Shown here in pieces: positions 9,320 to 22,026 of a stretch of 22,803 nucleotides of DNA. Where the stretch lies: the IMG/VR virus record IMGVR_UViG_3300032893_000280, positions 1 to 22,803 of that record; one strand, 5' to 3'. The DNA comes from a virus. The notes under the pieces are model-generated. The model worked only from the letters and a program-made list of their open reading frames with translations. It did no database searches and was not told where the DNA came from. Positions within the stretch are counted from its first letter, which is position 1. Every line of letters begins with the position of its first letter. The translations under genes and the position numbers were made by a program.

Positions 9320-9805
9320 TCACTTCTCCGGGGCCGCGAGGGGCCCTGCCTTAGCGGCACTGGGGGTGGTGTCGGTCTTCTTGGGTCCCGGGACTTCTGG
9401 GGGTGGCGTCTGGCCGTGGCGCTTCACAAGATCCGCGACCGCGGCCTTGAATTCCGCCTTCGCCTTGTCACCGTGCTCGTCGCCGAACGTGGGGTCGAAC
9501 TTCACGTTGGCCCGCTGCGCGGTCTCGAGGTCGGCAGGCCAAAGGTCCCCGTCCCGAAGGTGACGCACGTACTCGCCGTAGTAGGGGTCATCGACGCTGA
9601 TCTCGACCGCAGCCTCGACGCCGAGCTTCTTGAGGTAGACCGCGTGTCGCCGCGGCTGCCGGGTCGCAGGGTCCGTAAAGGGCTTGCCCAGCGTGCTGTC
9701 GAGCGTCCAACCGTGGAACCGGTTCATGCCGCTCCCCATCAGGGCCCCGTAATCCTGCACACGCGCCGTGCCGCGAGGCAACACGCGAATCTTGTCGTCA
9801 GGCAT
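9320..9805 (-). CDS. Hypothetical protein before the sheath (possible DUF2635-like)
   Basis: Codes for 161 aa from the ATG at 9805, with a GGAG Shine-Dalgarno 7 bases away. The N-terminus (MPDDKIRVLPRGTARVQDYG) and the middle (AVYLKKLGVEAAVEISVDDP, then YVRHLRDGDLWPADLET) have the 'V.P....V.D ... R.L.dGDl' pattern of the short DUF2635 (Mu gp38-like) proteins often encoded just before the sheath. This protein is longer, with a Lys/Pro/Ala-rich tail (PKKTDTTPSAAKAGPLAAPEK region) that looks disordered. Its last codons overlap the GTG upstream of the sheath start. A role in sheath or neck assembly is inferred only from position. Confidence 0.55.
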   Translation of the reverse strand: MPDDKIRVLPRGTARVQDYGALMGSGMNRFHGWTLDSTLGKPFTDPATRQPRRHAVYLKKLGVEAAVEISVDDPYYGEYVRHLRDGDLWPADLETAQRANVKFDPTFGDEHGDKAKAEFKAAVADLVKRHGQTPPPEVPGPKKTDTTPSAAKAGPLAAPEK

Positions 9806-9820
9806 CTCGAGACTCCATCT

Positions 9821-10822
9821 TCAGGTGTACGTGAACGCGTTGAGAAGCGTGACGGTCTGGCCGTCTTCGTTGACTACCGTGACCGAGAGCGTACCGCTGC
9901 CGCTGACGGCCGGCGTCACGCACGTAAGACTCGTGGCGCTGTTCCACACGACACTCGTCGCGGGCGTGACGCCGAACAGCACCGCGGGGACCGGAAGATA
10001 AAGCGTGCCCGTGATCGTGACCGACGTCCCGCCCGCGATGGGACCCGTCGCAACACTTAGAGAGGTGATCGTGGGGGCCTGCTGGGTCGAGACACTCACG
10101 AGGTTCGGTACCGTCGTGAGGTCGGGCGCCACGAGGTCCATCTGGATGTCGCCGCCCGCGAACTTCTCGCCCGGAAGGTACATGTCGCGTTCACGTACGA
10201 ACCCCTCCATGAGGAGGAACGGGAACTTCAAGCCCTTGCTGTCTTGGGTCGCGTCCCAAGTGCCGTAGTGGCCGCGCGTGAACCCAATCTCGTCGAGGCC
10301 CGCGAGCGTGAGGGTCCAGGGTTGCTCGCCCGTCGTGCCGCCCGGGGGCGTGTAGCCGGGGTCGTAGCCTTGAGTGGTCTTGCGTCGCAGCGTCATCTCG
10401 ACGCTGCGGAGAATTGGGAGTAGCTGCTCGCTCTGGCCCGCCGTAAGGGGCGGCAAAACGTACACGCAGTCGAAGCTGCACGTGTCCTCTTCCCAGCTCG
10501 CGGTCTTACGCGTGTAGGTCGAGGTCTTGCGGTAGACCGCGAGGAGCGGAAACTGAAACTGATTGGTCGTGAGCTCGAGCGCTGGAGGCCACGGGTAGAC
10601 TTGCGCGACCGCAGTCTCGATCGGGTTCTGGGTCGTGAAGGCCGCGCGCGCGGCCTCGAGGAGCCGAGGCCCCACGTAGGTCTCGATGAGAAATTTGTAG
10701 AAGTCGATGATGTAGAAGAAAACGGGGTCCGCGTCCCGGAGCAGTGTGTTGGGGCTCCCGGTCGCGAGCGGCAGCACCGCGGCGTCGATCTCGAAGTCGC
10801 TGTAGGGGAGCGGCTGGACCAC
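9821..10822 (-). CDS. Probable tail terminator protein with C-terminal IPT/TIG domain
   Basis: Codes for 333 aa from a GTG at 10822, 3 bases after the stop of the gp10-like gene. The first ~240 residues include PLLAVYRKTSTYTRKTASWE, an ILRSVEMTLRR helix and a beta-rich end (GLKFPFLLMEGFVRERDMYL); the position after gp10 and before the sheath fits the tail terminator (gpU / Mu gp37 role). Residues 249-333 (PTITSLSVATGPIAGGTSVT ... VLFGVTPATSVVWNSATSLT ... LSVTVVNEDGQTVTL) are a clear IPT/TIG Ig-like domain. Such domains are common as surface-displayed add-ons in phage tail and capsid proteins and may bind carbohydrate or the cell surface. The terminator role is inference; the IPT/TIG domain is well supported. 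Confidence 0.7.
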   Translation of the reverse strand: MVQPLPYSDFEIDAAVLPLATGSPNTLLRDADPVFFYIIDFYKFLIETYVGPRLLEAARAAFTTQNPIETAVAQVYPWPPALELTTNQFQFPLLAVYRKTSTYTRKTASWEEDTCSFDCVYVLPPLTAGQSEQLLPILRSVEMTLRRKTTQGYDPGYTPPGGTTGEQPWTLTLAGLDEIGFTRGHYGTWDATQDSKGLKFPFLLMEGFVRERDMYLPGEKFAGGDIQMDLVAPDLTTVPNLVSVSTQQAPTITSLSVATGPIAGGTSVTITGTLYLPVPAVLFGVTPATSVVWNSATSLTCVTPAVSGSGTLSVTVVNEDGQTVTLLNAFTYT

Positions 10823-10825
10823 GCG

Positions 10826-11281
10826 TCACCGCGCCTTCTCGATCGCGTACCCGACGTATTCTTGCGCGGCAAACGCGGCCGCGACTTCACCGACGTGTCG
10901 CGCCTCGTGCATGAAGGGACGCGCCGAAGTCCCCGGGTGCTGTACCGAGCGGCGGAAGAACTCCTGGCCGTTGACGAAGAAGTGGAGCGCCTTGGCGCGT
11001 CTCGCCACGATGGCGTGCGCACGAGTCCCGTTCTCGAGAAACGCCGCCGCCCCCCGCGCGATCACGAAGCCCCGCAGACCTCGTTCGCCACGCGTCACTT
11101 CGGCGTGAATGGAGCCGCGAGTTTTGCCGGTCCGATCCCTGAAAAGGGTTGTGCGGAGCGCGCTCTCCTCCGCGGCCCGAACCGCGGCCCGCATCGTGAG
11201 GTCGATCGCCTGGTGGAGTCCACCCTCCAGCGCTTCGAGCCCCGAACGCGTGCGAGCCGTTTCGAACTTCGCGGAAAACAT
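10826..11281 (-). CDS. HK97 gp10-like neck / tail completion protein
   Basis: Codes for 151 aa from the ATG at 11281, whose first base overlaps the TGA of the zinc-ribbon gene (TGATG). The signature is clear: TGKTRGSIHAEV, then AAAFLENGTRAHAIVARRAK (residues 78-97), FFVNGQEFF and HPGTSARPFMHEA (115-127). This is the HK97 gp10 family pattern of 'E.GT..H.I..R..k.L.f......... HPGt...PFm..a'. Members act in the neck or tail-tube completion at the head-tail interface. The frame is open further upstream but only antisense-like sequence is added, so the overlap start is preferred. Confidence 0.85.
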   Translation of the reverse strand: MFSAKFETARTRSGLEALEGGLHQAIDLTMRAAVRAAEESALRTTLFRDRTGKTRGSIHAEVTRGERGLRGFVIARGAAAFLENGTRAHAIVARRAKALHFFVNGQEFFRRSVQHPGTSARPFMHEARHVGEVAAAFAAQEYVGYAIEKAR

Positions 11282-11613
11282 CAGCGCGAGATGCTCTGGA
11301 GGTTGTGCAGGATGTTGGCCCCGTACGCACGGTCGACTCGGTGCACCACCGCGGCCTTGCTGCCGGCGTGAATCGTCTCGAACACGAGGAGAACAAATCG
11401 GGGATCGGTCTCGTCGGGCGTCACGGTGACGCGCGGCATCGCGACGCCGTATGCCACGCGGGTTCGGCATTCGTCGCAGCGGAAGATGCTCTCGCGCGGA
11501 GGAGGTCCGGGAGGCCACGGGGCTTCGTGGCCACACGCCGGACACGTAAAAGTTTCGGCGGGGTTCCTCAAAGGCTCGGCCCCCATCGCGGCCGCTTGTC
11601 TTTCGAGCGTCAT
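11281..11613 (-). CDS. Small zinc-ribbon protein in the connector module
   Basis: Codes for 110 aa, with an ATG at 11613 overlapping the preceding TGA as ATGA. Two Cys pairs, CPAC (24-27) and CDEC (46-49), are 18 residues apart and form a typical zinc-ribbon knuckle pair. The rest (PRVTVTPDETDPRFVLLVFE, then VHRVDRAYGANILHNLQSIS) is a short alpha/beta part. No known phage connector family is recognised. Zinc ribbons in phages may bind nucleic acid or proteins or hold a small structural protein together. Tight overlaps on both sides show it is expressed with the neck genes. A second ATG at residue 10 is a possible alternative start. Confidence 0.7.
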   Translation of the reverse strand: MTLERQAAAMGAEPLRNPAETFTCPACGHEAPWPPGPPPRESIFRCDECRTRVAYGVAMPRVTVTPDETDPRFVLLVFETIHAGSKAAVVHRVDRAYGANILHNLQSISR

Positions 11614-12107
11614 GGTGTGTCACCGTTGGCCCTCAAGATGACGTTGAGGTGGAGGGCCGTGAACTCTTCTCCAACCTTTTGCGCCCAGCCCCCCGGCCCC
11701 ACGGGCCACCCCGGCCCCACGACGTTCCAGAAGACCTCGACGGGCTTTTGCGAGACCGGCACCGCGGGGTCCGCAGTCGCGTCGTCGAAGCCCCCCGCGG
11801 GAAACCCGATGCCGGCCGGGTAGGGGGGCGTAATGGGTCCGACCTTGATGTCGCGGTCCGCGTAGACCCCACCCGACGCGATGATGTCACGCCTCGAAAG
11901 CTGTACGACGTGGACCGGCGTCCGACCGCCCCCCGGCAGCGCGTTGGTGAGCTGCGTCGTGACGTCACTCGAAGTCCCGACGCCCGGCCGCGGTCCATCC
12001 CACGTCCGGACCAGCACCGTCACGGTGTAGACCCGGAGGCCCAGCAGCCCCCCGACGCCCCGCACAATATCGATGGGACCCAGGATGACGTCGCGGTACG
12101 TCGCCAT
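11610..12107 (-). CDS. Hypothetical connector-region protein (possible head-closure / stopper)
   Basis: Codes for 165 aa from the ATG at 12107, 5 bases after the fiber stop. It begins MATYRDVILGPIDIVRGVGG and is beta-rich (YTVTVLVRTWDGPRPGVG, HVVQLSRRDIIASGGVYADR, ending EFTALHLNVILRANG). I do not recognise the family. Lying before the gp10-like neck gene, where many phages encode the stopper or adaptor, it may be a head-closure protein; this is inference from gene order only. It contains GPGGWAQ, a heptapeptide also found in the 76-aa protein and the fiber, in a similar Gly/Pro-rich setting. Confidence 0.6.
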   Translation of the reverse strand: MATYRDVILGPIDIVRGVGGLLGLRVYTVTVLVRTWDGPRPGVGTSSDVTTQLTNALPGGGRTPVHVVQLSRRDIIASGGVYADRDIKVGPITPPYPAGIGFPAGGFDDATADPAVPVSQKPVEVFWNVVGPGWPVGPGGWAQKVGEEFTALHLNVILRANGDTP

Positions 12108-12112
12108 TGCGC

Positions 12113-14431
12113 TCAGAAGCCACTCGTCGCGAGCGCCGCCGCCAGAACGGCGTACATGCGCTCGTATCCGATCTTGCTCGGGTGCACCCCGTCCGCGACG
12201 AAATATGGCGTCGTGATGGTCGTGCCGTGACTGCCCATCATCGCGTCGGCGCCCACGTCGGCCAGGATGACGACGGCCTTCGTGGCGCCAGATGTACTGC
12301 CCCAGGACGCGTAGTTGGCCCTCACGCCTGCGTTCGCCGGCAGCCGCACCGCTTCGTTGCTGGGCCCGAGGTATGGCGTCGTGATGACCACCACTCCGTG
12401 CGTGAGCCCGTCGCCGAGCGCGACGAGCCCCGTCACGGCGTTACCGACGGCTGTCTGCCAGTCGGCGATCATCTGAAGCGCGGTCCGACTCTGCTCGAGG
12501 TCGTTCGTGCCGCCCTGGATGATGACGAGGTTTTTGACGCCTGGCGTGAGCGCCGGAACGACGCTGCTCGTGACCGACGCGCCGATCTGCGCGAGCGTGG
12601 TGCCTCCGACCCCGAAGTTGAGCGGATAGCCGTACGTTGGCGATCCGTACTTAGGGCCACCGTAGACCATGAGACGACCGTCGAGGCGGTAGCGGTACAC
12701 GCTGTTGACCCCTGCACCTGCCGTGATCGAGTCGCCCGCCTCCAGCACCTTGACTGTCTGCGGTCCGGACGTTGTCGGCGATGACGGCCATTTCGCTTGG
12801 CAGTCCGCCAACCCCTGCGCCAGTAGTGCGCCACTCAGCACGGAGGAATACAGGTACCATCGCGCAATGGCGCCGATGCCGATCGCGGACAGCGCGTGCG
12901 AGGCGCCGAGCATCCCAGAGACCGTGGCGGTGCCAGTGCCGGGGCTCACTGCGTTCGTCGTCAGCGCAAGAGCCTGACCGTCGCGCGTGATCGTGGGCGG
13001 GTCGGTACCGTTGCTCGTCACGATCCACGTGTGACACCCGTCATCGGATGCCCATAGCTGGTGATTGCACCCGTACTTCTGGGTGAGGTAGTTGTCGCGG
13101 ATCAAGCGCTGCGCCGCCGTGAGCGTCTTGGTGATGCAGACCGCGTAAATCTGTCCGTACCACGGCTCGCCGCCGCCAACGGCCGAACCGACGGACACGT
13201 TGGTCAGCGCGGTCGCGACGCCTGTGCCGCTCGCAATAAGGACGCCTCCGTCCACCTGCGCCGTGGCGTTTTGCGCGACCGGCGCGGCGAACGCGAACAT
13301 GTGCGGGATGCCGCCTCCGTCCGCCACGTTCAACGCATTGGTGTTGTTGAAACCGGCGAAGATCTGGAAGTTCGACGACGCGAAGGAGAGGATCGCGTTG
13401 CTGTTGCCGCCGTTCGTATCGAAGGCGGTCATCAGCGTATTGCTGTTTGCCTGCGTGCAGACGATCGCGACCTCGTATCCGAGCGGCACGGAGAACGTCC
13501 CCGCGATCGTCTGGCCGCTCGTGGCCGTGCAATTCAGGTACGGCTTGCCATTCGCGAGGCCTCCGCTCGACACGAACGGGATACGGTTGCCCGCTGTCGC
13601 CTGCGATAGGCCATTGCCGTTGCCGCTCTGGTCCGCCCACGCGCTGATGTTGTTCGAGCCGTCGACCGTGACGCCGCTGTCCGTCTCCAGAAGCGTGTAG
13701 AACACGCTCGCGCCAAGTGCCGTCACCAGGCTACTCGGCGACAGATAAGCATTCGCCGTCTCCTCGGAGCTACCCGTCCGGTTGATCGCGAGCGACGGCC
13801 CAGTGGTCGTCGTCATGAGCATACCGGGGTTGCTCGCGACACCAGCCCCGAGTTCGAACAGCGTACCGGTGTCGCCTCGGCCGACCACGAACAGCGTGAA
13901 GGGCAATCCCCATGGGAGCGACGGGAGCGACAGTGCGGTCGTCGCCGCGTCGTTGAAGACGAGGTTGTCACCGTCGTTGCCGAACACGAAGGCGGGCTGT
14001 CCTGCCAGGTTCAGTTCGTCGTGCAGGCACGTCGTCGAGAAACTGGGCGGGGATGGCTGCGTGGCCGAGCCGCCGCCGCTACCAAGGTTCGCAGCGGCCG
14101 TGCAGAGTTGTCCCTCGTTGGTGCCCTGGGCCCCGTAGACGTACTTCGTGATGCTGGCAATGACGAGCGCGTCATACGCCTGCGTGGCCCCCGCCGGCAT
14201 GCCTCCACTCGAAGACGCGACGACTTGCGCCCAACCGCCGGGGCCGGCGGACTTGAGGATCGTGCCCCCGTTGCTACCGAGTAGCGACTGGCGACTGTAG
14301 AAGCTCGCGGTCTCGGCCACGTAGGCCAACGTGCCATCACCGTACGACGAGACGTCGAGTTGCTGGAGCTGCGACTTGGTCGGTACCCCGATGACCTCCA
14401 ACGTCTGTTCGGCCCCGTAGAGGACCGTCAC
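12113..14431 (-). CDS. Fiber-like protein: repeat module, LamG-like region and C-terminal SGNH/GDSL esterase
   Basis: Codes for 772 aa. A GTG at 14431 overlaps the preceding TGA as GTGA; starting there aligns the N-terminus with the 76-aa paralogue, so I prefer it to the GTG at 14461. Residues about 1-75 share the DVSSY.DGTLAYV / RQSLL..NGGTIL / GPGGWAQ module. Residues about 245-455 (AWADQSGNGNGLSQAT ... IYAVCITKTLTAAQRLIRDN ... YLTQKYG) have the look of a concanavalin/LamG-like jelly roll. The C-terminal ~200 residues carry SGNH blocks: GDSI (Ser568), NFGVGG, GGTND (Asn643) and DGVH (Asp747, His750). SGNH enzymes remove acetyl or other esters, so the product probably binds and deacylates a surface glycan. 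The fiber role is inferred from architecture. Confidence 0.85.
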   Translation of the reverse strand: MTVLYGAEQTLEVIGVPTKSQLQQLDVSSYGDGTLAYVAETASFYSRQSLLGSNGGTILKSAGPGGWAQVVASSSGGMPAGATQAYDALVIASITKYVYGAQGTNEGQLCTAAANLGSGGGSATQPSPPSFSTTCLHDELNLAGQPAFVFGNDGDNLVFNDAATTALSLPSLPWGLPFTLFVVGRGDTGTLFELGAGVASNPGMLMTTTTGPSLAINRTGSSEETANAYLSPSSLVTALGASVFYTLLETDSGVTVDGSNNISAWADQSGNGNGLSQATAGNRIPFVSSGGLANGKPYLNCTATSGQTIAGTFSVPLGYEVAIVCTQANSNTLMTAFDTNGGNSNAILSFASSNFQIFAGFNNTNALNVADGGGIPHMFAFAAPVAQNATAQVDGGVLIASGTGVATALTNVSVGSAVGGGEPWYGQIYAVCITKTLTAAQRLIRDNYLTQKYGCNHQLWASDDGCHTWIVTSNGTDPPTITRDGQALALTTNAVSPGTGTATVSGMLGASHALSAIGIGAIARWYLYSSVLSGALLAQGLADCQAKWPSSPTTSGPQTVKVLEAGDSITAGAGVNSVYRYRLDGRLMVYGGPKYGSPTYGYPLNFGVGGTTLAQIGASVTSSVVPALTPGVKNLVIIQGGTNDLEQSRTALQMIADWQTAVGNAVTGLVALGDGLTHGVVVITTPYLGPSNEAVRLPANAGVRANYASWGSTSGATKAVVILADVGADAMMGSHGTTITTPYFVADGVHPSKIGYERMYAVLAAALATSGF

Positions 14432-14658
14432 GACGTCGTGACCGTGAAGGTTTGAGCCCACCCCCCTGGCCCATTGGCGGCCGACAGGATCGTGCCCCCA
14501 TTGGGCTGCAGGAGGGACTGGCGGCAGTAGTAGCTCTGAGAAGCCGAAACGTACGCCAACGTGCCGTCCGGGTAGCTCGAGACGTCAACCTGCTGCAGCA
14601 CCGCGGTGGTCGGGACCCGGATGAGGCGTAGCGTCGTCTCGGCTGCGAAGATCGTCAT
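14428..14658 (-). CDS. 76-aa stand-alone copy of the fiber N-terminal module
   Basis: Codes for 76 aa from the ATG at 14658, overlapping the methyltransferase TGA as ATGA. By hand alignment, about 32 of 46 positions from DVSSYPDGTLAYV through RQSLLQPNGGTIL to GPGGWAQ match residues about 26-70 of the following fiber-like protein, a clear paralogue. Its stop overlaps the fiber start (GTGA). It could be an independent small subunit or a remnant of a tandem duplication. Both copies keep the frame and the motif, which favours function. The module resembles short repeated pieces seen in phage tail fibers, but I cannot name a family. Confidence 0.75.
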   Translation of the reverse strand: MTIFAAETTLRLIRVPTTAVLQQVDVSSYPDGTLAYVSASQSYYCRQSLLQPNGGTILSAANGPGGWAQTFTVTTS

Positions 14659-15350
14659 GCTGGCCTCGCGACGATGTACCGGCGCGACACGTCCCACGGC
14701 ACGACCTCGACCCCATACCCCAGTTCGCCCAGCAGCGCGTGGATGCGGCGCGAGCTGTCGACGCTCTTGGGGTAGTCGCAGATCTGCGTCACGCCCGGCA
14801 GGTCGACGTCCTCGTGGTCCTCGATGATGAGCGTGGGGCGGCATCGTTCGAGCATGCGGCGCCCCCCCAGCAGCACTCCCAGCTCCGCACCCTCGACGTC
14901 GATCTTGACCATGTGAGCGTGGGTCACCTGGTCATCGAGCGTCGAAACCCTCCACGTCACCGTGGGGTAGTGACGCGTAAAGACCTCCCCCGACAACTCC
15001 GCGGGGTACGGGGTCCGATCCCAGAGCACGAGCTTGTGGATGGCGCAGCGCGACGTCCATTCGTTCGCCACGACGTTGGCCCTTAGGACCGCGTGCGCAA
15101 CGTCCGACGGCTCGAACGCATGTACGCGGCACCCCATCGTGAGGGCCGCGAGCGCGTAGGCCCCGAAGTGCGCCCCGACGTCCACGAACACGTCGCCGGG
15201 CCGAAGCCCCGCCAGCAGATGCCGCACGGGCTCGTCCTGGTCGAAGCACGCGTTGTCGTGTTCTTCGAACCCCACGCTCGCGGGATCGACGACGAGGAAC
15301 TCGCGCTTGAGAAACGTCTTGATCTCGACCCGCTTCACGTCCGCACCCAT
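14655..15350 (-). CDS. FkbM-type SAM-dependent methyltransferase (second)
   Basis: Codes for 231 aa from the ATG at 15350, which has a weak GGGG about 7 bases upstream and overlaps the previous gene by 16 bases; a GTG at 15338 giving a GTGA overlap is an equally possible start. Motif I is VDVGAHFG (56-63), with acidic E80 in HAFEPS for the SAM ribose, and the FkbM hallmark KIDVEGAE lies at 149-156, followed by TLIIEDHED (173-181). FkbM-family enzymes O-methylate sugars or sugar-like hydroxyls. It shares the family but not close sequence with the methyltransferase upstream, so this is not a recent tandem duplication. Likely substrate: the glycan made by the neighbouring glycosyltransferase (inference). 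Confidence 0.86.
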   Translation of the reverse strand: MGADVKRVEIKTFLKREFLVVDPASVGFEEHDNACFDQDEPVRHLLAGLRPGDVFVDVGAHFGAYALAALTMGCRVHAFEPSDVAHAVLRANVVANEWTSRCAIHKLVLWDRTPYPAELSGEVFTRHYPTVTWRVSTLDDQVTHAHMVKIDVEGAELGVLLGGRRMLERCRPTLIIEDHEDVDLPGVTQICDYPKSVDSSRRIHALLGELGYGVEVVPWDVSRRYIVARPA

Positions 15351-15976
15351 ATCGCGACCCCGTATTCGTGGTCGACCTCCGAGAGGCACCGGAATCCACG
15401 CGCCGTCGCGATCTTGCGCTGCGCGACGCGGTGGTCGCGCGAGTGGAACTCGACCAACAGCGCCTTGAGGTCGTCCCAGTGGCGGAAGTGGTTCATGACC
15501 TCGATCTCGGTCCCTTCGCTGTCGCACTTCAGAACGTCGCAGCGCGGGAGATCTCGAGGGTGCACCGTCGGGACCGCTCGACCCTCGGTGACGGACAACT
15601 GGTGCGTCTTCGCGCTCCCCCAATCCCACGGGAGTCCAAAGTAGGCCCGCTCCTGCTCCGTCACGGCCGCAGGGAAGCGATGGACGCGGAGCCGCGGGTG
15701 CGCGTTGGCGAACGTCAACTCGAGCGCGGCTTCGTTGGGGTCGTAGCAATGGACCGTCGTGAGCGAGGGCCAGCGGTGCGCTGCCCACGCGACGAAGCTC
15801 CCGCAGTGTGACCCGACGTCGACCGCGACCTCGACGCGCTCCGGTAGCGAGGCGTGGTCGTACTCACCGGCGAACACTTGTCGGCAGATCCATTCCGCAT
15901 GGTCACGCGTATTCCGGGGTTCCGCCGGGATCGCGAAAGGGCGACCGCCAGGTCCGTCGATGAGCTCGATCTTCAC
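15335..15976 (-). CDS. FkbM-type SAM-dependent methyltransferase (first)
   Basis: Codes for 213 aa from a GTG at 15976 that shares one base with the TAG of the preceding gene (TAGTG); a GGAGG lies about 11 bases upstream. The SAM-binding motif I is VDVGSHCG (52-59), with D79 in HCYDPNE as the acidic ribose contact. The FkbM hallmark appears as KCDSEGTE (150-157), then a LLVEFHSRDH strand. The protein is complete at the usual family length. The substrate is probably a sugar hydroxyl, since FkbM enzymes are common in glycan clusters and the large glycosyltransferase is two genes upstream. Two FkbM genes in a row suggest methylation at two positions or residues. Confidence 0.86.
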   Translation of the reverse strand: MKIELIDGPGGRPFAIPAEPRNTRDHAEWICRQVFAGEYDHASLPERVEVAVDVGSHCGSFVAWAAHRWPSLTTVHCYDPNEAALELTFANAHPRLRVHRFPAAVTEQERAYFGLPWDWGSAKTHQLSVTEGRAVPTVHPRDLPRCDVLKCDSEGTEIEVMNHFRHWDDLKALLVEFHSRDHRVAQRKIATARGFRCLSEVDHEYGVAIWVRT

Positions 15977-16491
15977 TAGGGACCGAGCCTCCAGTGCTGC
16001 AAATTGTCATAGGCGAACGGGTCGTCGTCGAGAATCACTGGAGCCGCAGAAAAGACATCGGCCCGGACCCCCTTCATGCCGAGCATCCTGGCAAGCGCGT
16101 GGCAAAGGCGACGACCTTCTTTGCGCAGCAACACGATGCCGCGGAACACGTCCAGCACCGCCTCCTTGTTGTCCGAACTCTGGACAAACGTAATGGGCCA
16201 CATGACCTGGATCTGAGCCTCCAACGTCAAAAGCCCCTGCTGGGCCGGCATCGCGAACGTGGTGGACTGCGTCGTAGGGCCGGGCGTCACGGGATTGCCG
16301 GCTTGCGCCGCGCTTCCGTACACGATTCCCTTGATGTAGTTTTCGACGTTGCTGTCGGGACGCGCCCCCCCATCCGCCTCCGACTGGGTCGCCGTGATGG
16401 CGTTCTCGAGTCGCGGCTCGGCCTGGAGAAAGATCGCCCCGTAGCCGACGAAGTGTCGCAGGTAGGTTCGGTCTTGCTCGCTGTACGCCAT
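15976..16491 (-). CDS. Hypothetical virion-region protein (171 aa)
   Basis: Codes for 171 aa from the ATG at 16491, 2 bases after the stop of the glycosyltransferase. It begins MAYSEQDRTYLRHFVGYGAI and continues with a helical FLQAEPRLENAITATQSEAD part, a Thr/Pro/Gly-rich middle (NPVTPGPTTQSTT) and a C-terminal helical LRKEGRRLCHALARMLG. I cannot name the family. The helical opening and its location between capsid and neck genes fit a head-tail adaptor or similar connector, isolated here from its partners by the glycan genes. The frame is open further upstream inside the glycosyltransferase, but that is same-strand shadow. Its place within the cassette could also mean a role linked to glycosylation. 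Confidence 0.6.
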   Translation of the reverse strand: MAYSEQDRTYLRHFVGYGAIFLQAEPRLENAITATQSEADGGARPDSNVENYIKGIVYGSAAQAGNPVTPGPTTQSTTFAMPAQQGLLTLEAQIQVMWPITFVQSSDNKEAVLDVFRGIVLLRKEGRRLCHALARMLGMKGVRADVFSAAPVILDDDPFAYDNLQHWRLGP

Positions 16492-16493
16492 CG

Positions 16494-19400
16494 CTACTCC
16501 GCACAGGCGCGCTGAAGATATCGAGGACCCGCGTACAGGCTCGCGTCCCGAATGATGCCCTCGAGCGCGACCGCGGCCCGGTCGAACGTGTACTGAGCCG
16601 CGAGCTGAGGCCCGAGCTCCCGAAGGTCCGATGTCTCGGCAACCGCAAGCGTACACGCGACCGTCTCGGCGAACACGTCGAGATGTTGACTCGCGGGCGA
16701 CGGGCACATCGCGACGTGACCCCGGTAGATGGACTCCAGCGCGTCCGCTGGCGCCAGCACGACCGGGATACCGAGCCGGCAACACTCCATAGTCGAGACG
16801 CTGAAGGTCTCGCACGGCGCCGTGGGCTCGCACGGGAACGCGAACACCGACGCCTCCGCGAGCTCTCGCCAGAGCTCCGCCCTCGGGAGCTTGCCGAGCA
16901 ACACCACGCCCCCCGCGGCCTCGGCGCGCGCGTAGCTGGCGCGAAGCTCGCGCGTACGGTCACCCAGCCGCCCCTTGGGCTCTTCGGAATCCAGAATGGC
17001 GCGCAGCGGCCCCACGACGTGCAGGTGGGCCTCCGGCATCATGCGTCGGATCTCGGGATAGGCGTTCAGCAGGTTGTGGAGTCCGCGGTCCGCCGACGTG
17101 TGGTAGAGGATGCGGCCGCAGACGGGCCGGCGCTCGATCGGCAGCTCCCCGACGGCGTTGGGGAGGACGGCCCAGCGGCCCGTGGGATCGAACTGCTCCC
17201 GCAGAATGTCGACCGCGTGCTGACTCGGCGCCACGTTGACGTCCGCCGAGTCGAAGTGCATGTAGGGCTGGTACGTGTGGTGGCTCGCGACCCTTAGGGT
17301 TCGGCGACCGTCGAAGTGTACGAGCGGCGAGGTGTCGTAATACGCGAGCACCACGTCGGGCGCCGGTGCAGACAAGAGGTGGTCGAGCCGCACATAGTCG
17401 ACACCCTCGCGATGCACCAGCGGATGCCGGAAGGTCGAGTACGCCCGAACGTTCCAACGCCCCGTGGCCCCCATTGCCCGCACGAGTCCCAGGAAGCCGA
17501 CGCGCGAACCCCGGCCCTGCGCTTCAGCGCCTGGGTCCCCCGTCGCGTCCATCAGGACATCGCCGCTCGCCTGCGGTGCGAGGATCATGTGGATCGTGGG
17601 GAGGTTGGGTCGCACCGCGTACACGCCCTCCGTGATGGGCGTCACCTTCGCCATCGCGACGTCGCGGAACGCCCACTCGCCCCACTGGACCGCCACGGGG
17701 TCCCAACCGAAAGTGTCGCGCGCGTACTCCCGAACGGGTTCTCGCCAAGTGTCGCACTTGTCCGAGAGCGTGAGGGCCGTGACGGCCGCGTCGACGAACT
17801 GGATCCGGTACTCTTCGGTGTCGACCGCCCCGACCGGCATCGCGCAATAGCGGGCCGTTTCGGGCAGCGCCCCGTAGGGCGAGCAGACGCCGTGCAGACC
17901 CGCGGCCTGCGCCTCCATGGCGGTGATGCAACTTGTTTCAGTGAAGGGCTTCCCCCCTGCCCAACTGGGATAGAGCCACGCGCCCGCGGCCAACATCTCG
18001 CGCGCGAGCGTCGCCTGATCGACGCGGTCGTGGTGCACGACGCCTGGCGTCGCCGCCATCTTGGTCTCGAACTCGTCACGCGCCAACTTGGGAAAGCCCG
18101 CGAACCCGTAGAAGACGTGCAGCTCGGCGTCGGGCACTCGGGCCAGAATCGCGGGCCACATATCGAGTAGCTCCGTGAGGCCGCGGTCCGGGCTCGAGCT
18201 GTAGATCGCGCGATGCGGGTGACGCGTGACCTCGACGTCGAAGCGTTCAAACTCGATGCCGTTGCGGGTCTGTACCACACGGTCCGCCACGCCCGGGAAG
18301 GCTTTGCGGAGGTGATCGGCGTGCCATGCGCTCAACGCCAACACGCGGTCCGCGAGGTCTATGTTCCACGGCGTCGCTCCCGCCGGCAGAACGTCGTGCA
18401 CCCAGAGCCACTTGACCTTCGCGCGGTGATTCTCCAGTAGCTCGGCGCTGCGCCACGCGACCAACAGGTCGCACCCCTCGACTTCGTCGACGTTCCCCAT
18501 CGCGCGGTACTCGACGCCCTCGTAAAGGCCCGGTCGGTCGCACCGGCAATACACCCTCACGCGGCAGTCGAGGATCGCAAGCCGCTTCGCGACCTGGATG
18601 ACGGCCGTCTCGCTGCCGCCAATGCCGCGCCGCGCCGCACTGTCGGGGTCCCATGCTTCCCCGAACGCCCCGCACACGATCGCGACGTCGAGCTTGCCCG
18701 CGTGGAGGTCGGTGGTGCGCAGCTCCAGTTCACGCAGCCTGAGCTGCGCCGCGGGGTCGTCGGCACGCACCACGTGCTTGAAAAGATCGTACGCGGCCTT
18801 GACGTCACCGAGCCGTTCGAGCACGTCCTGCAGGATCGCGGGGACGTTGAACGTCGCGTCGCTCGGATTCTGCGGCGCGGAAGACCGTGGGCGCGTGAGC
18901 GCGAGCCCCTTTTCGGCGAAGTGTCGGACACGCGCCAGGTGGCGAAGCTCCGCCGCGGCGTCACCCCGATGCTTGACCTTGTTCGCCACCCCGTACGCCA
19001 ACTTCGCGAGCGCGAAGTAGCCATCGGGCCAGTCGGGCCTGTACTGCACGGCCTTTTGGCCCCAGAGCGCGGCGTCTTGCTCGCGCCCCGGCCAAAACGA
19101 CAACACATCCACCATGTGGAGGCACGCCAGCATGCGCTCGTCGTCGAGGTCGCTCGCGTGGACGAACCGCACCATCCACGCGAGCGCGAGGTTGTGGTCG
19201 CCCGACTTCGCAAACTCCATCCCGAGGTCGAACATCGTCTTGGGGTCGACGTGGTCGACCCCGACCTCGCGCACGTGGTCCAGGAGAATCCGGAGGTTGC
19301 GGCGCGACCGAGGCTTCGTCTTGTCGCAGTGGTGACGCCACACGATGGGGTACGGGGGCTCGAGCGTCTGCCACTCGTTCGCGAGCCGGCACGTGAGGCC

Positions 19401-19868
19401 CTCGTGTACCCGGTAGACCCAGTGGAACTGGTTCGCGGGGTACACGACACGCTCGCGCTGTTGCCAGCTGATCGAGCGCTCTTCGGCGTCCTGGTCGTAG
19501 TCGTAGCCGAAGAGCGCGCGCCACGGCTGACCCTTGGAGCGCGCGTGGCACCACGCGATGGCGTCCCGCAGTTGGTCGGGATTCTCGACCGTGTCGTCGG
19601 CATCGAGCCACACGACGGTCTCGTGGCTCGCGAGCGCGAAGCTTTTGGCGCGCGCCCGCGAGAAGTCCGCGATGTCGCCGTCGGGGAAGTTGCAGTCCGT
19701 GAAGAACTCGAACTTGTCCGCCAGCCGGGCCGCGACCTCCGCCGTGCCGTCATGACTCCCCGTGTCCACGATGCAGACCTCGTCGACGTGGGGACGGATC
19801 GAGAGAACGGCCCGTTCGAGTCCGGGCTCGTTCTTCACGATCAGGCAGGCGGAGATGCGGTCAGCCAT
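16494..19868 (-). CDS. Three-domain glycosyltransferase: GT2, TPR-like, GT4, GT4
   Basis: Codes for 1124 aa from the ATG at 19868 (MADRISACLIVKNEPGLERA), 8 bases after the preceding stop; the upstream GTG at 19922 would add a non-conserved extension. Domain 1 (about 1-190) is a GT2 GT-A fold with SACLIVKNE, VDTGSHDGT and the DXD in WLDADD (89-91). Residues about 205-390 are helical and TPR-like. Domain 2 (about 392-740) is GT-B/GT4-like with GGSETAV (417-423), SSSPDRGL and E644-x7-E652. Domain 3 (about 770-1110) is another GT-B with TSADRGL (924-930) and E1020-x7-E1028. All three appear catalytically intact, so one chain may add two or three sugars in turn. Cytoplasmic; no signal or membrane segment is seen. 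Targets are probably virion proteins or a host glycan. Confidence 0.9.
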   Translation of the reverse strand: MADRISACLIVKNEPGLERAVLSIRPHVDEVCIVDTGSHDGTAEVAARLADKFEFFTDCNFPDGDIADFSRARAKSFALASHETVVWLDADDTVENPDQLRDAIAWCHARSKGQPWRALFGYDYDQDAEERSISWQQRERVVYPANQFHWVYRVHEGLTCRLANEWQTLEPPYPIVWRHHCDKTKPRSRRNLRILLDHVREVGVDHVDPKTMFDLGMEFAKSGDHNLALAWMVRFVHASDLDDERMLACLHMVDVLSFWPGREQDAALWGQKAVQYRPDWPDGYFALAKLAYGVANKVKHRGDAAAELRHLARVRHFAEKGLALTRPRSSAPQNPSDATFNVPAILQDVLERLGDVKAAYDLFKHVVRADDPAAQLRLRELELRTTDLHAGKLDVAIVCGAFGEAWDPDSAARRGIGGSETAVIQVAKRLAILDCRVRVYCRCDRPGLYEGVEYRAMGNVDEVEGCDLLVAWRSAELLENHRAKVKWLWVHDVLPAGATPWNIDLADRVLALSAWHADHLRKAFPGVADRVVQTRNGIEFERFDVEVTRHPHRAIYSSSPDRGLTELLDMWPAILARVPDAELHVFYGFAGFPKLARDEFETKMAATPGVVHHDRVDQATLAREMLAAGAWLYPSWAGGKPFTETSCITAMEAQAAGLHGVCSPYGALPETARYCAMPVGAVDTEEYRIQFVDAAVTALTLSDKCDTWREPVREYARDTFGWDPVAVQWGEWAFRDVAMAKVTPITEGVYAVRPNLPTIHMILAPQASGDVLMDATGDPGAEAQGRGSRVGFLGLVRAMGATGRWNVRAYSTFRHPLVHREGVDYVRLDHLLSAPAPDVVLAYYDTSPLVHFDGRRTLRVASHHTYQPYMHFDSADVNVAPSQHAVDILREQFDPTGRWAVLPNAVGELPIERRPVCGRILYHTSADRGLHNLLNAYPEIRRMMPEAHLHVVGPLRAILDSEEPKGRLGDRTRELRASYARAEAAGGVVLLGKLPRAELWRELAEASVFAFPCEPTAPCETFSVSTMECCRLGIPVVLAPADALESIYRGHVAMCPSPASQHLDVFAETVACTLAVAETSDLRELGPQLAAQYTFDRAAVALEGIIRDASLYAGPRYLQRACAE

Positions 19869-19876
19869 GCGCGGGC

Positions 19877-20146
19877 TCAGAAGAGAATCGACTGCGGGAC
19901 GGGGGACGGCAGCACGCGGCACGTGCTGGGCGTGTAGAGCGGGGTCCAGGGCGGCGCCCCACCCTTTTGCACGAGCCGCACCGGGCGATTGAACACCTGG
20001 GCGAACTGCTGCGCGACCACCTGGGCATCGAGCAGCGTCGCGGCGGTGAATTCGGGCGAAATCTGGTTGCCGCTCCCGCCACCCCCCGCGCCGCCCGAAG
20101 AGTTCGTGTAGTCGTCGATGAGGTAGTAGACCGATGCCGTTGCCAT
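19877..20146 (-). CDS. Small hypothetical protein (89 aa) with Gly-rich linker
   Basis: Codes for 89 aa from the ATG at 20146, one base after the stop of the preceding gene. It begins MATASVYYLIDDYTNSSGGA, has a Gly-rich linker (GGAGGGGSGNQ), then a helical EFTAATLLDAQVVAQQFAQV part and a beta end (RPVRLVQKGGAPPWTPLYTP). No family is recognised. Its position two genes after the major capsid protein and the linker-plus-small-domain build would suit a head-associated protein, but this is inference. Tight spacing to the 237-aa gene and to the glycosyltransferase gene makes it a normal operon member. Confidence 0.6.
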   Translation of the reverse strand: MATASVYYLIDDYTNSSGGAGGGGSGNQISPEFTAATLLDAQVVAQQFAQVFNRPVRLVQKGGAPPWTPLYTPSTCRVLPSPVPQSILF

Positions 20147-20147
20147 T

Positions 20148-20861
20148 TCACTTGCCTTTCGTTCTTGCCGCCTGTTCGACGGACTGGAGTTTGTTTTCCG
20201 CTTCGAGCCGCGCCTTGGTCTCGCGCGCGGCCGCCTCTTCGGCGCGGGCCTTGGCCTCGAGCGCCTCGCGTGCCGTGGCCTGCGCTTGCTCGAGGAGCTT
20301 GCGCGCGCCCTGCACCTCCATCTCGGCCGAAAGCTTCTCGACGTTCGCCTTCGCCATCGCGGCCATGGCTTGCTCGGCCTGCGCCTTCGCCATGTCGAGG
20401 TTGGCCGCCAAGCCGGGGACCTTGTGCCACCGTTTGCAAATCAACTGCGGCGCCAACCCCGCCGACACGACGCGGGGATGGTCGAGGTCACGGCACGCAT
20501 CCTTTTTGTTCGTGCACGCGGGATGCAGGCAGTGCGTGCGCTGGATCGCGAGGTCGAAGTCGCTCGAGATCTGCTTGGTCTGGCCAGCCTTGATTACGAA
20601 GATGCGGTTGCCGCTCTTCATTTCAAGTCGGCGTGCCGGCGTGGCCTCGAGATAGGCCTTGCGCCAAGCCGCATTCTTCGGATCGGTCCCGATGTGGACC
20701 TCGAGCACGACGTCCTGCGACGTCGGGTTGTACCACTCGGTGTAGAGCTGGTCGTCCTCGACGTAGAGGGGGGCACCGGGGGTGTCGACCGGAATGAACT
20801 GGCCGTCGTACTTGGCCGGCTTCGCACTCGGGATGAAGTCGTCTTGGGTGGGCTGTGACAT
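20148..20861 (-). CDS. Head-region protein: beta domain, Cys cluster and coiled-coil tail
   Basis: Codes for 237 aa from the ATG at 20861, with GAAGG about 9 bases upstream. Residues about 20-105 are beta-rich (GAPLYVEDDQLYTEWYNPTS, DVVLEVHIGTD, RIFVIKAGQTKQISSDFDLA). A Cys/His cluster follows, HC-LHPAC-TNKKDAC-R with another Cys at LICKRW, perhaps binding zinc. The last ~90 residues (AQAEQAMAAMAKANVEKLSA ... ARAEEAAARETKARLEAENK) form an Ala/Glu/Lys coiled coil. Encoded directly after the major capsid protein, it may decorate or stabilise the head. I recognise no known family. The coiled coil could make it an oligomer. Confidence 0.65.
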   Translation of the reverse strand: MSQPTQDDFIPSAKPAKYDGQFIPVDTPGAPLYVEDDQLYTEWYNPTSQDVVLEVHIGTDPKNAAWRKAYLEATPARRLEMKSGNRIFVIKAGQTKQISSDFDLAIQRTHCLHPACTNKKDACRDLDHPRVVSAGLAPQLICKRWHKVPGLAANLDMAKAQAEQAMAAMAKANVEKLSAEMEVQGARKLLEQAQATAREALEAKARAEEAAARETKARLEAENKLQSVEQAARTKGK

Positions 20862-20922: not shown

Positions 20923-22026
20923 TCAGCTCTCGCTGATGTCCTGGATGACCGCCATCGCGTTTCGACGAACGATGGCCGACGCCACCGTCAACCTCGCGCT
21001 GATCTTGTGGCTGTCGCCCGTCTTCGCGATCTCGACGAACCGCACGGGCAGCGGCACCGTCATCCTGGTCGCGGGCTCGTCGCCCGAGCTGCCCGTCAAC
21101 CCGAGCGACTCGAAGAACTCGATCTCGTTGCGGGTCGGCATGTGGGGTAGGTACTGGAGCTTGATGAATTCCGTGTTGAGGAACGCCATCTTGCCCGTCG
21201 GGGCCAACGGGTTGCGCTGCACGCGCTTGCCCTTCCACTGCAGGTTGTCCATCTGTCCGATGGCGTCCATCGCGACCCCGAGCCCGTATTCGTTGCGGTC
21301 GTTGATACGCACGAGCGGGAAGTTGCCCGCGTTGCCTGTGCCGGCCGTGAAGAACTGCTCGTACTTCGCCGCGACGCCCGCCGACGTCAGGATCATGTTC
21401 CACGGCAACGAAGCCGCGATGAAGATCGCGTTGTCGGCCTGGTTCATGAGGTTGGGCGTGAGCGACCGCAAAACACCGCCGTTGGCCAGCAGCGTCGAAG
21501 CCCATTCGCTGTAGGTCGCGGGGTTGAGACCACCGTAGACACCGCTCGCCGACAGCGCACCGCCGAAGATCCCGATGAGCGTCGGGTTGCCGTTGGAGTC
21601 GACACCCGTGCCCGTCAGGAGATCCTGCTCGACCGCCTTCGCGAGAATCGAGTTGGCCGACACGACACGCGACCCGAAGAGATCGCGCAGCTTCTCGGGG
21701 GTCCCGATGGAGCCGCGTGCCGCGTCGATCTCCTGCTCGGAGATCTGGAAGCTCGTGCGGTAGGTCGCCCACGAGAAGACCGCTGGCTCGTTGATGTCGG
21801 AGTTGTACTCGGACGCCTGGACGTCGCTCCCCTCCGCCACGGTACCGCCCGTCGCGTTCGTAAACTCGACGTCGAACGCGGCGTTCTTGCCGTGGCCCGG
21901 CTTGATGTTGCCCGCCTCCGCGATCCACTTGAGGAGGAACGTCGTGCGGTTCCATTGCCGCGTGAGGTCCTCGTCCATCGTCTGCGACAAGGCATTGAAA
22001 ATCGTCGCGATGCTTTCACCAGCCAT
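20923..22026 (-). CDS. Major capsid protein
   Basis: Codes for 367 aa. The ATG at 22026 has an AAGGAAG Shine-Dalgarno about 5 bases away. It starts MAGESIATIFNALSQTMDED and includes TTFLLKWIAEAGNIKPGHGK, TYRTSFQISEQEIDAARGSI and a late RMTVPLPVRFVEIAKTGDSH. The N-terminal helix, the A-domain-like middle (TPNLMNQADNAIFIAASLPW) and the length fit HK97-fold capsid proteins. It follows a scaffold-like gene and has the strongest start signal in the head section, as a high-copy protein should. It is the main shell subunit and a candidate target for the downstream glycosyltransferase. The call rests on gene order and general pattern, since capsid families share little sequence. Confidence 0.85.
   Translation of the reverse strand: MAGESIATIFNALSQTMDEDLTRQWNRTTFLLKWIAEAGNIKPGHGKNAAFDVEFTNATGGTVAEGSDVQASEYNSDINEPAVFSWATYRTSFQISEQEIDAARGSIGTPEKLRDLFGSRVVSANSILAKAVEQDLLTGTGVDSNGNPTLIGIFGGALSASGVYGGLNPATYSEWASTLLANGGVLRSLTPNLMNQADNAIFIAASLPWNMILTSAGVAAKYEQFFTAGTGNAGNFPLVRINDRNEYGLGVAMDAIGQMDNLQWKGKRVQRNPLAPTGKMAFLNTEFIKLQYLPHMPTRNEIEFFESLGLTGSSGDEPATRMTVPLPVRFVEIAKTGDSHKISARLTVASAIVRRNAMAVIQDISES

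Follow-up and report, generated by a model that had tools for sequence, protein, structure and literature searches.

The 22,803-bp viral fragment IMGVR_UViG_3300032893_000280, a whole IMG/VR record analysed over its full length and called the window below, carries in a minus-strand head operon the genes of a three-domain glycosyltransferase (GT), of two FkbM-type methyltransferases and of a fibre-like protein ending in an SGNH hydrolase domain. We consider it rather probable (about 0.6) that during late expression a virion protein, for which the capsid protein is the best candidate, is glycosylated by the phage and probably also O-methylated, and that the neighbouring fibre de-esterifies host glycan. 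The gene content, the intact motifs, the domain architecture, the insertion sites and the recurrent capsid adjacency of the GT family were all directly observed. In the order of transcription, a partial scaffold-like gene was followed by the major capsid protein (MCP) gene, g3, g4, the GT gene, g6, the methyltransferase genes FkbM A and FkbM B, a 76-aa open reading frame (ORF), the SGNH fibre gene, g11, Neck1, the gene of a TIG-domain protein, the sheath-like and tube-like genes and the baseplate genes.

Architecture of the glycosyltransferase

The GT gene (positions 16494–19868, minus strand), which constitutes the first insertion described below, encodes a protein of 1124 aa organized into a GT-A domain (residues 1–180), a TPR solenoid (187–388) and two GT-B domains (393–739 and 758–1107). 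A preliminary description, made from the sequence alone, had called this protein a three-domain glycosyltransferase, in agreement with the Pfam matches to three GT domains (PF00535 in the N-terminal domain at 8.9e-11, PF13439/PF13692 and PF13692). TPR Pfam matches were also present in the GT homologs of two related phages, G003 and G006. The AlphaFold2 model, built with 38 sequences, had a mean pLDDT of 84.9 and a pTM of 0.70. A DXD motif (WLDADD) and two E-x7-E motifs were read in the translation; across the 38 relatives residues W87, D89, D91 and D92 were nearly invariant and E644 was invariant. The GT-A domain with its DXD motif and the helical repeat directly C-terminal to it place the protein among the GT2-TPR enzymes of the GmaR/SunS type.

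The search of the PDB with the GT sequence gave one match, between its N-terminus and GmaR (1.3e-10). Foldseek associated the first half of the model with the peptide glycosyltransferases SunS and ThuS (7msp, TM-score of 0.67 by target, root-mean-square deviation of 3.3), and the solenoid with the following GT-B domain with the TPR-GT-B protein glycosyltransferases SPY and OGT. GmaR is a flagellin O-linked N-acetylglucosamine (O-GlcNAc) transferase in which substrate binding is ascribed to the TPR domain (PMC9638930), and SgtA, encoded by the C. difficile sgtA-bclA3 gene pair, adds O-GlcNAc to a collagen-like protein in vitro (PMC7157674). Like GmaR, SgtA, SunS and ThuS, the window GT has a helical-repeat domain after its GT-A domain, the resemblance being one of sequence for GmaR and of fold for SunS and ThuS. 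It differs from the GmaR-type enzymes by two extra GT-B domains, by the lack of an antirepressor-domain match and by its presumed virion substrate. From its sequence and its modelled fold, the GT looks like a protein glycosyltransferase, and the transfer of sugar to a protein side chain is predicted. No hydrophobic stretch exceeding a Kyte–Doolittle (KD) value of 1.62 was found in the GT or in the other cassette proteins.

These N-terminal relatives, which are protein and peptide glycosyltransferases, speak against an action of the GT on modified bases in the phage DNA, a reading which we hold to be very improbable although DNA-glycosylating phage GTs are well known (cited in PMC12619734). A thymidylate-synthase-like hydroxymethylase was found in none of 20 records, which were mostly fragments and included one complete 42.6-kb genome, while the positive control was detected. 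No Tet/JBP match was obtained in the 20 records, and the Tet/JBP control was likewise silent.

Two insertions in the head operon

A search based on the MCP identified six relatives which share, with small differences, the core scaffold–MCP–g3–g4–g6–g11–neck–TIG–g14–sheath–tube. Five relatives were informative (G001, G002, G003, G005 and G006); G004 was a fragment in which, at the resolution used, the scaffold and MCP genes only were covered, and G007 was remote. The interval between the MCP and neck genes was devoid of GT, FkbM and fibre genes in all five, and the genes g6 (56–64% identical) and g11 (29–54% identical) were present in these relatives lacking the cassette. Because the relatives keep the g4-g6-g11 core without the cassette genes, the gene order indicates two separate insertions in the window, one between g4 and g6 (the GT gene) and one between g6 and g11 (FkbM A, FkbM B, the 76-aa ORF and the fibre gene). 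The alternative of a single insertion of the whole run was ruled out by the gene order in the relatives.

Reading of the ORFs confirmed the minus-strand run and the gene coordinates of the preliminary description. The cassette indeed occupies one strand and one run, but it is not unbroken as had been proposed: g6 parts the GT gene from the FkbM genes, and g11 parts the fibre gene from the neck gene. The main genes had been correctly listed, with the omission of the 76-aa ORF. The gene junctions in the run were overlapping or only a few bases apart, with TAGTG between g6 and FkbM A, a 16-nt overlap between FkbM A and FkbM B, ATGA between FkbM B and the 76-aa ORF, and GTGA between the latter and the fibre gene; the three short overlaps had already been pointed out.

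In the sister phage L034, whose MCP is 66% identical, the first slot contains a full-length GT (50% identity over 1120 aa) and the second slot a homolog of FkbM B (44%), after which the contig ends. The order GT-g6-FkbM is common to the window and L034. A different situation was observed in G003 and G006, where two GTs (GT-A-TPR-GT-B and GT-B-GT-B) and a methyltransferase are located upstream of the terminase, 12–16 kb from the MCP gene. The upstream module of G006 also holds an NAD-dependent epimerase, and G003 possesses a homolog of FkbM A (38%). The window GT is equivalent to the first of the two GTs joined to half of the other one. In L034, no GT match was found in the interval between the homolog of G006_29 and the terminase. 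The simplest reading of this comparison is that the GT was relocated and fused, in either direction. The suggestion that the genes travel as a single set was not supported by the search for the same gene order in phage metagenomes: the GT and FkbM B were shared with a single sister phage, L034, the GT homologs and methyltransferases of G003 and G006 lie far from the MCP gene, and no relative of the fibre could be detected among the viral sequences.

The g4/g6 slot of G005 holds an HNH endonuclease instead of a GT. It is one of two HNH-endonuclease-like ORFs seen at head- and tail-gene boundaries in relatives (L016:11906-12646 and L017:16982-17680).

Capsid adjacency across the GT family

An alignment of the window GT family, called GT-1, was scanned over IMG/VR and gave 391 relatives, the best 80 of which were kept. 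Adjacency was defined by the presence of the MCP gene at most four genes upstream on the same strand, in loci where four or more upstream genes were available; since the gene boundaries came from a simple home-made caller, gene-number counts are approximate. The MCP gene was located within four genes upstream in 55 of 68 GT-1 loci, most commonly at a distance of two genes, and in 51 of 63 loci once near-copies were removed. With the same MCP profiles, adjacency was seen in at most one of 53 control FkbM loci. As these profiles came from GT loci, and were hence biased, a PHROG scan of the same-strand upstream neighbours of 150–700 aa was added; it raised the control to about 5 of 53 (five head-protein matches among the 25 of 60 families listed).

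Most of the capsid-adjacent loci were SU10-like, with a phrog_1328 MCP and an SU10 adaptor downstream. Two pairs of loci belonged to other MCP families (phrog_4523 and phrog_1357), and the window and L034 to phrog_9953. When the MCP label was placed on the GT tree (FastTree, unrooted, in which gain and loss are indistinguishable), nine changes were needed, eight of them forced by starred branches. The window and L034 were positioned beside G003 and G006, inside a clade of chiefly fibre-adjacent GTs, so that inheritance of their capsid adjacency from the SU10-like group is improbable.

Thirty loci reached from the MCP gene to the adaptor or to the next virion gene. The slot contained GT2s, methyltransferases, epimerases and large fibre- or LamG-like proteins, and the same was true of the complete genome MW202524 (ctKR88, Manatee Spring). 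The location of the cassette had been thought unusual, and this can no longer be maintained because fibre-like genes recur in the slot between MCP and adaptor of SU10-like phages, together with these enzymes. In the SU10-like podoviral contigs and in MW202524, GT-1 lies two to four genes after the MCP gene, and further GTs, methyltransferases, an epimerase and a fibre-like gene precede the adaptor, as a parallel to the window. They differ from it by an unrelated tail type, a distant MCP and a GT-1 protein which is about 30% identical and lacks the second GT-B domain. The window MCP itself showed a remote SU10_MCP match (0.0019 in the profile scan, P of 8.9e-4 with hhalign).

A second GT-1 group sits just 3' of collagen-like fibre genes, and bacterial GT2-TPR relatives also adjoin collagen-like genes, as in C. 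difficile sgtA-bclA3. In the large contigs L036, L055, L056, L059 and L098, the genes directly upstream of the GT-1 GTs encode collagen-like proteins of 1109–1823 aa, and epimerase and radical-SAM/B12 genes are found downstream. Short GT2-TPR genes of about 350 aa adjoin collagen-like genes in Clostridia and relatives (L131, L133, L137, L142, L147, L149 and L152); these short clostridial proteins are probably O-GlcNAc transferases acting on their collagen-like neighbours.

The adjacency counts bear on the possibility that the cassette is mosaic cargo, the head-operon boundaries being permissive insertion sites whose position says nothing about the substrate. The HNH endonuclease at the g4/g6 boundary of G005, another one between the sheath and tube genes of G006, and the location of homologous GTs elsewhere in G003 and G006 speak for such cargo. 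We nevertheless judge it quite unlikely, as the capsid adjacency of the GT recurs across MCP families far above the FkbM control and all the catalytic motifs are intact.

The methyltransferases and the SGNH fibre

FkbM B (14655–15350, minus strand, 231 aa) matched TIGR01444 with 66.5 bits (3.4e-18), the cut-off being 37.7, and possesses the invariant residues D53, D57, G59, K149, D151 and E153. FkbM A (15335–15976, minus strand, 213 aa) was marginally over the same cut-off with 39.0 bits, its Pfam PF05050 match was under the cut-off of that family, and its S-adenosylmethionine (SAM) binding motif reads VDVGSHCG. The assignment of two FkbM methyltransferases in the preliminary description was therefore upheld by TIGR01444 and the SAM-binding motif, for FkbM A by a narrow margin. 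Some FkbM proteins methylate non-sugar substrates.

The fibre-like protein (12113–14431, minus strand, 782-aa ORF) consists of an N-terminal domain resembling the 76-aa ORF, a middle virion-structural or LamG-like part and a C-terminal SGNH/GDSL hydrolase. The fusion of an SGNH esterase to a fibre-like protein, recognised from the start, was corroborated by PF13472 (6.4e-13, 50 bits for a cut-off of 32.9), PF00657 (8.6e-8), the virion structural protein family phrog_10356 (9.9e-10, residues 254–467) and the tail fibre family phrog_5240 (2.1e-5). The SGNH blocks I, II, III and V were all present (GDSIT, GVGG, GGTND and DGVH). The 76-aa protein (14428–14658, minus strand) is a tandem copy of the fibre N-terminal domain, 61% identical to fibre residues 1–85, the two copies forming a direct repeat 230 bp apart. 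As this domain is duplicated as a free protein, a shared attachment or decoration module is the expected reading, and the 76-aa protein is possibly an anchor or decoration protein.

No close relative of the fibre was found in phage records or viral contigs, the scan with its N-terminal domain was also negative, and no match was obtained with any of the genes called in the examined loci. By its SGNH catalytic blocks, the fibre-like protein recalls the SGNH/GDSL esterases of tail spikes and fibres; unlike these, the window gene is located among head genes and not after the baseplate genes, and its N-terminal domain is doubled as the 76-aa protein. The SGNH domain would most likely act on acylated host glycan.

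Conserved genes around the cassette

The MCP (20923–22026, minus strand, 367 aa), which is the candidate substrate, matched phrog_9953 (4e-18) and is 50–82% identical to that of the relatives. Downstream of it, g3 (20148–20861, minus strand) is a conserved head-operon gene without assigned function, detected by tblastn in the relatives and in L034, which holds three g3-like copies; g4 (19877–20146, minus strand, 89 aa) also recurs in the relatives and L034. The conserved core gene g6 (15976–16491, minus strand, 171 aa) probably plays a role in head completion, as judged by its position alone. Its structure prediction provided no usable fold (pLDDT of 38.7), and a match to PPR proteins was discarded as it spanned just 28 residues. 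On the other side of the second insertion, g11 (11610–12107, minus strand) encodes 165 aa; g6 and g11 gave no match to the PDB or to SU10-adaptor profiles. The gp10-like neck gene noted initially was found again as Neck1, a tail completion protein gene (10826–11281, minus strand; phrog_5, 4.1e-10), 40–58% identical in the relatives. The conserved gene that follows, at positions 9821–10822, ends with an IPT/TIG domain (PF01833, 1.3e-12), as it does in relative L016.

Several other elements were observed in the compared loci. An ORF resembling histidine phosphatases, with an RHS/RHA motif near its N-terminus, is kept between the portal and scaffold genes in the clade (G006, 9385–9909; G003, 30404–30901; L034:4580-5116). 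The perfect palindrome GACGGAACCCGGGTTCCGTC is dispersed in relatives, with about 17 copies in G003 (L010–L012), about seven in G005 (L016) and about seven in G001 (L013), where the variant ACCGGAACCCGGGTTCCGGT occurs. The copies are both intergenic and intragenic, including in the GT gene of G003, and the window is devoid of the palindrome. In L045, L082, L100 and L110 the MCP gene is interrupted or flanked by a LAGLIDADG-like ORF (cluster c24), and a GroEL-like gene (453–461 aa) lies between the MCP gene and the next head gene in the SU10-like contigs L101, L105, L106 and L109. A scan of genome contigs with the MCP, for a host or prophage of the clade, gave no match.

A proposed model of virion glycosylation

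We propose the following sequence of events. Because their two insertion points are gene boundaries within the head operon, the cassette genes would be expressed late together with the capsid. A nucleotide sugar would donate the first residue, which the GT-A/TPR half of the GT would attach to a serine, a threonine or a different side chain in a virion protein; the likeliest acceptor is the product of the MCP gene, three genes upstream. The two GT-B domains would then extend the glycan, which one or both FkbM methyltransferases may cap or decorate by O-methylation. At adsorption, the SGNH fibre would strip acyl esters from the host glycan, and probably not from the phage's own glycan. This model relies on the late co-expression, on a cytosolic GT without membrane segments, on the protein-GT-like N-terminus and on the recurrent neighbourhood. 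Modification of the phage's own particle had already been envisaged in the preliminary description, and the GmaR match, the SunS/ThuS fold and the contrast in MCP adjacency (55/68 against about 5/53) lend support to this idea.

To our knowledge, phage virion glycosylation has been demonstrated only in a few mycobacteriophages. Phage GTs that glycosylate virions and neighbour an O-methyltransferase are already known from this group: capsid and tail-tube proteins are glycosylated in Che8, Corndog and Myrna (Freeman et al. 2023, as cited in PMC12363180, PMC11600133 and PMC11256854), and in cluster O the GTs lie downstream of an O-methyltransferase (PMC12363180 and PMC11600133). The window resembles them by its phage-encoded GTs and, for cluster O, by the methyltransferase neighbour. 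It differs in that the genes are inside the head operon near the MCP gene, in the GT-A-TPR-GT-B-GT-B architecture and in being known here from genes alone. A tblastn search with the window GT (E of 1e-5, 50,697 phage records) gave eight matches, none of them in a mycobacteriophage.

Several observations weigh against the glycosylation of the virion. The sugar, the substrate protein, the order of the reactions, the target of the fibre and all of the chemistry are what we infer from the genes. The capsid adjacency stems mostly from one SU10-like group, and the GTs of G003 and G006, at 12–16 kb from the MCP gene, imply that it is not required. The five relatives without a GT at the site imply that the glycan is dispensable for assembly. 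SgtA was likened to the window GT by description only. Lastly, the best Foldseek E-value was obtained with a capsule-synthesis multienzyme (8qoy), compatible with the making of polysaccharide.

The enzymes might in fact alter a surface glycan of the host (lipopolysaccharide, capsule or exopolysaccharide) for superinfection exclusion or release, the SGNH fibre editing the same polymer. Besides the 8qoy match, FkbM, GT4 and epimerase genes are frequent in host polysaccharide loci, the control FkbM loci have GTs and epimerases as neighbours and are not near head genes, and pelagimyophage GTs adjoining fibre genes have been interpreted in this way (PMC7029224). We regard such a role as unlikely in view of the late head-operon position, the recurrent capsid adjacency, the GmaR/SunS-type N-terminus and a GT devoid of membrane segments; among the window ORFs scanned, none resembled GtrA or a lipid-carrier gene. 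The window differs likewise from the gtrABC serotype-converting cassettes, no Pfam match to a membrane flippase or membrane GT being present among the ORFs scanned in this fragment record.

Coming back to virion glycosylation, a wider proposal can be put forward tentatively. Glycan-coated heads may be common in the environment, produced by a capsid-glycosylation module widespread in uncultivated phages, in which a GmaR/SunS-like initiator with extender domains would often be accompanied by a nucleotide-sugar epimerase, further GTs, methyltransferases and a capsid-linked fibre. In several capsid lineages unrelated to each other, the module would have been placed repeatedly between the MCP and the head-tail adaptor. 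A literature search of partial coverage found no description of a capsid-adjacent GT2-TPR family. If this family acts on capsids, it would provide a sequence marker predicting glycosylated virions in metagenomes, and the GT could serve as a glycosylation tool. Virion glycosylation would become testable in any carrier phage, and would bear on adsorption, particle stability, immune recognition and the evasion of defences that recognise capsids.

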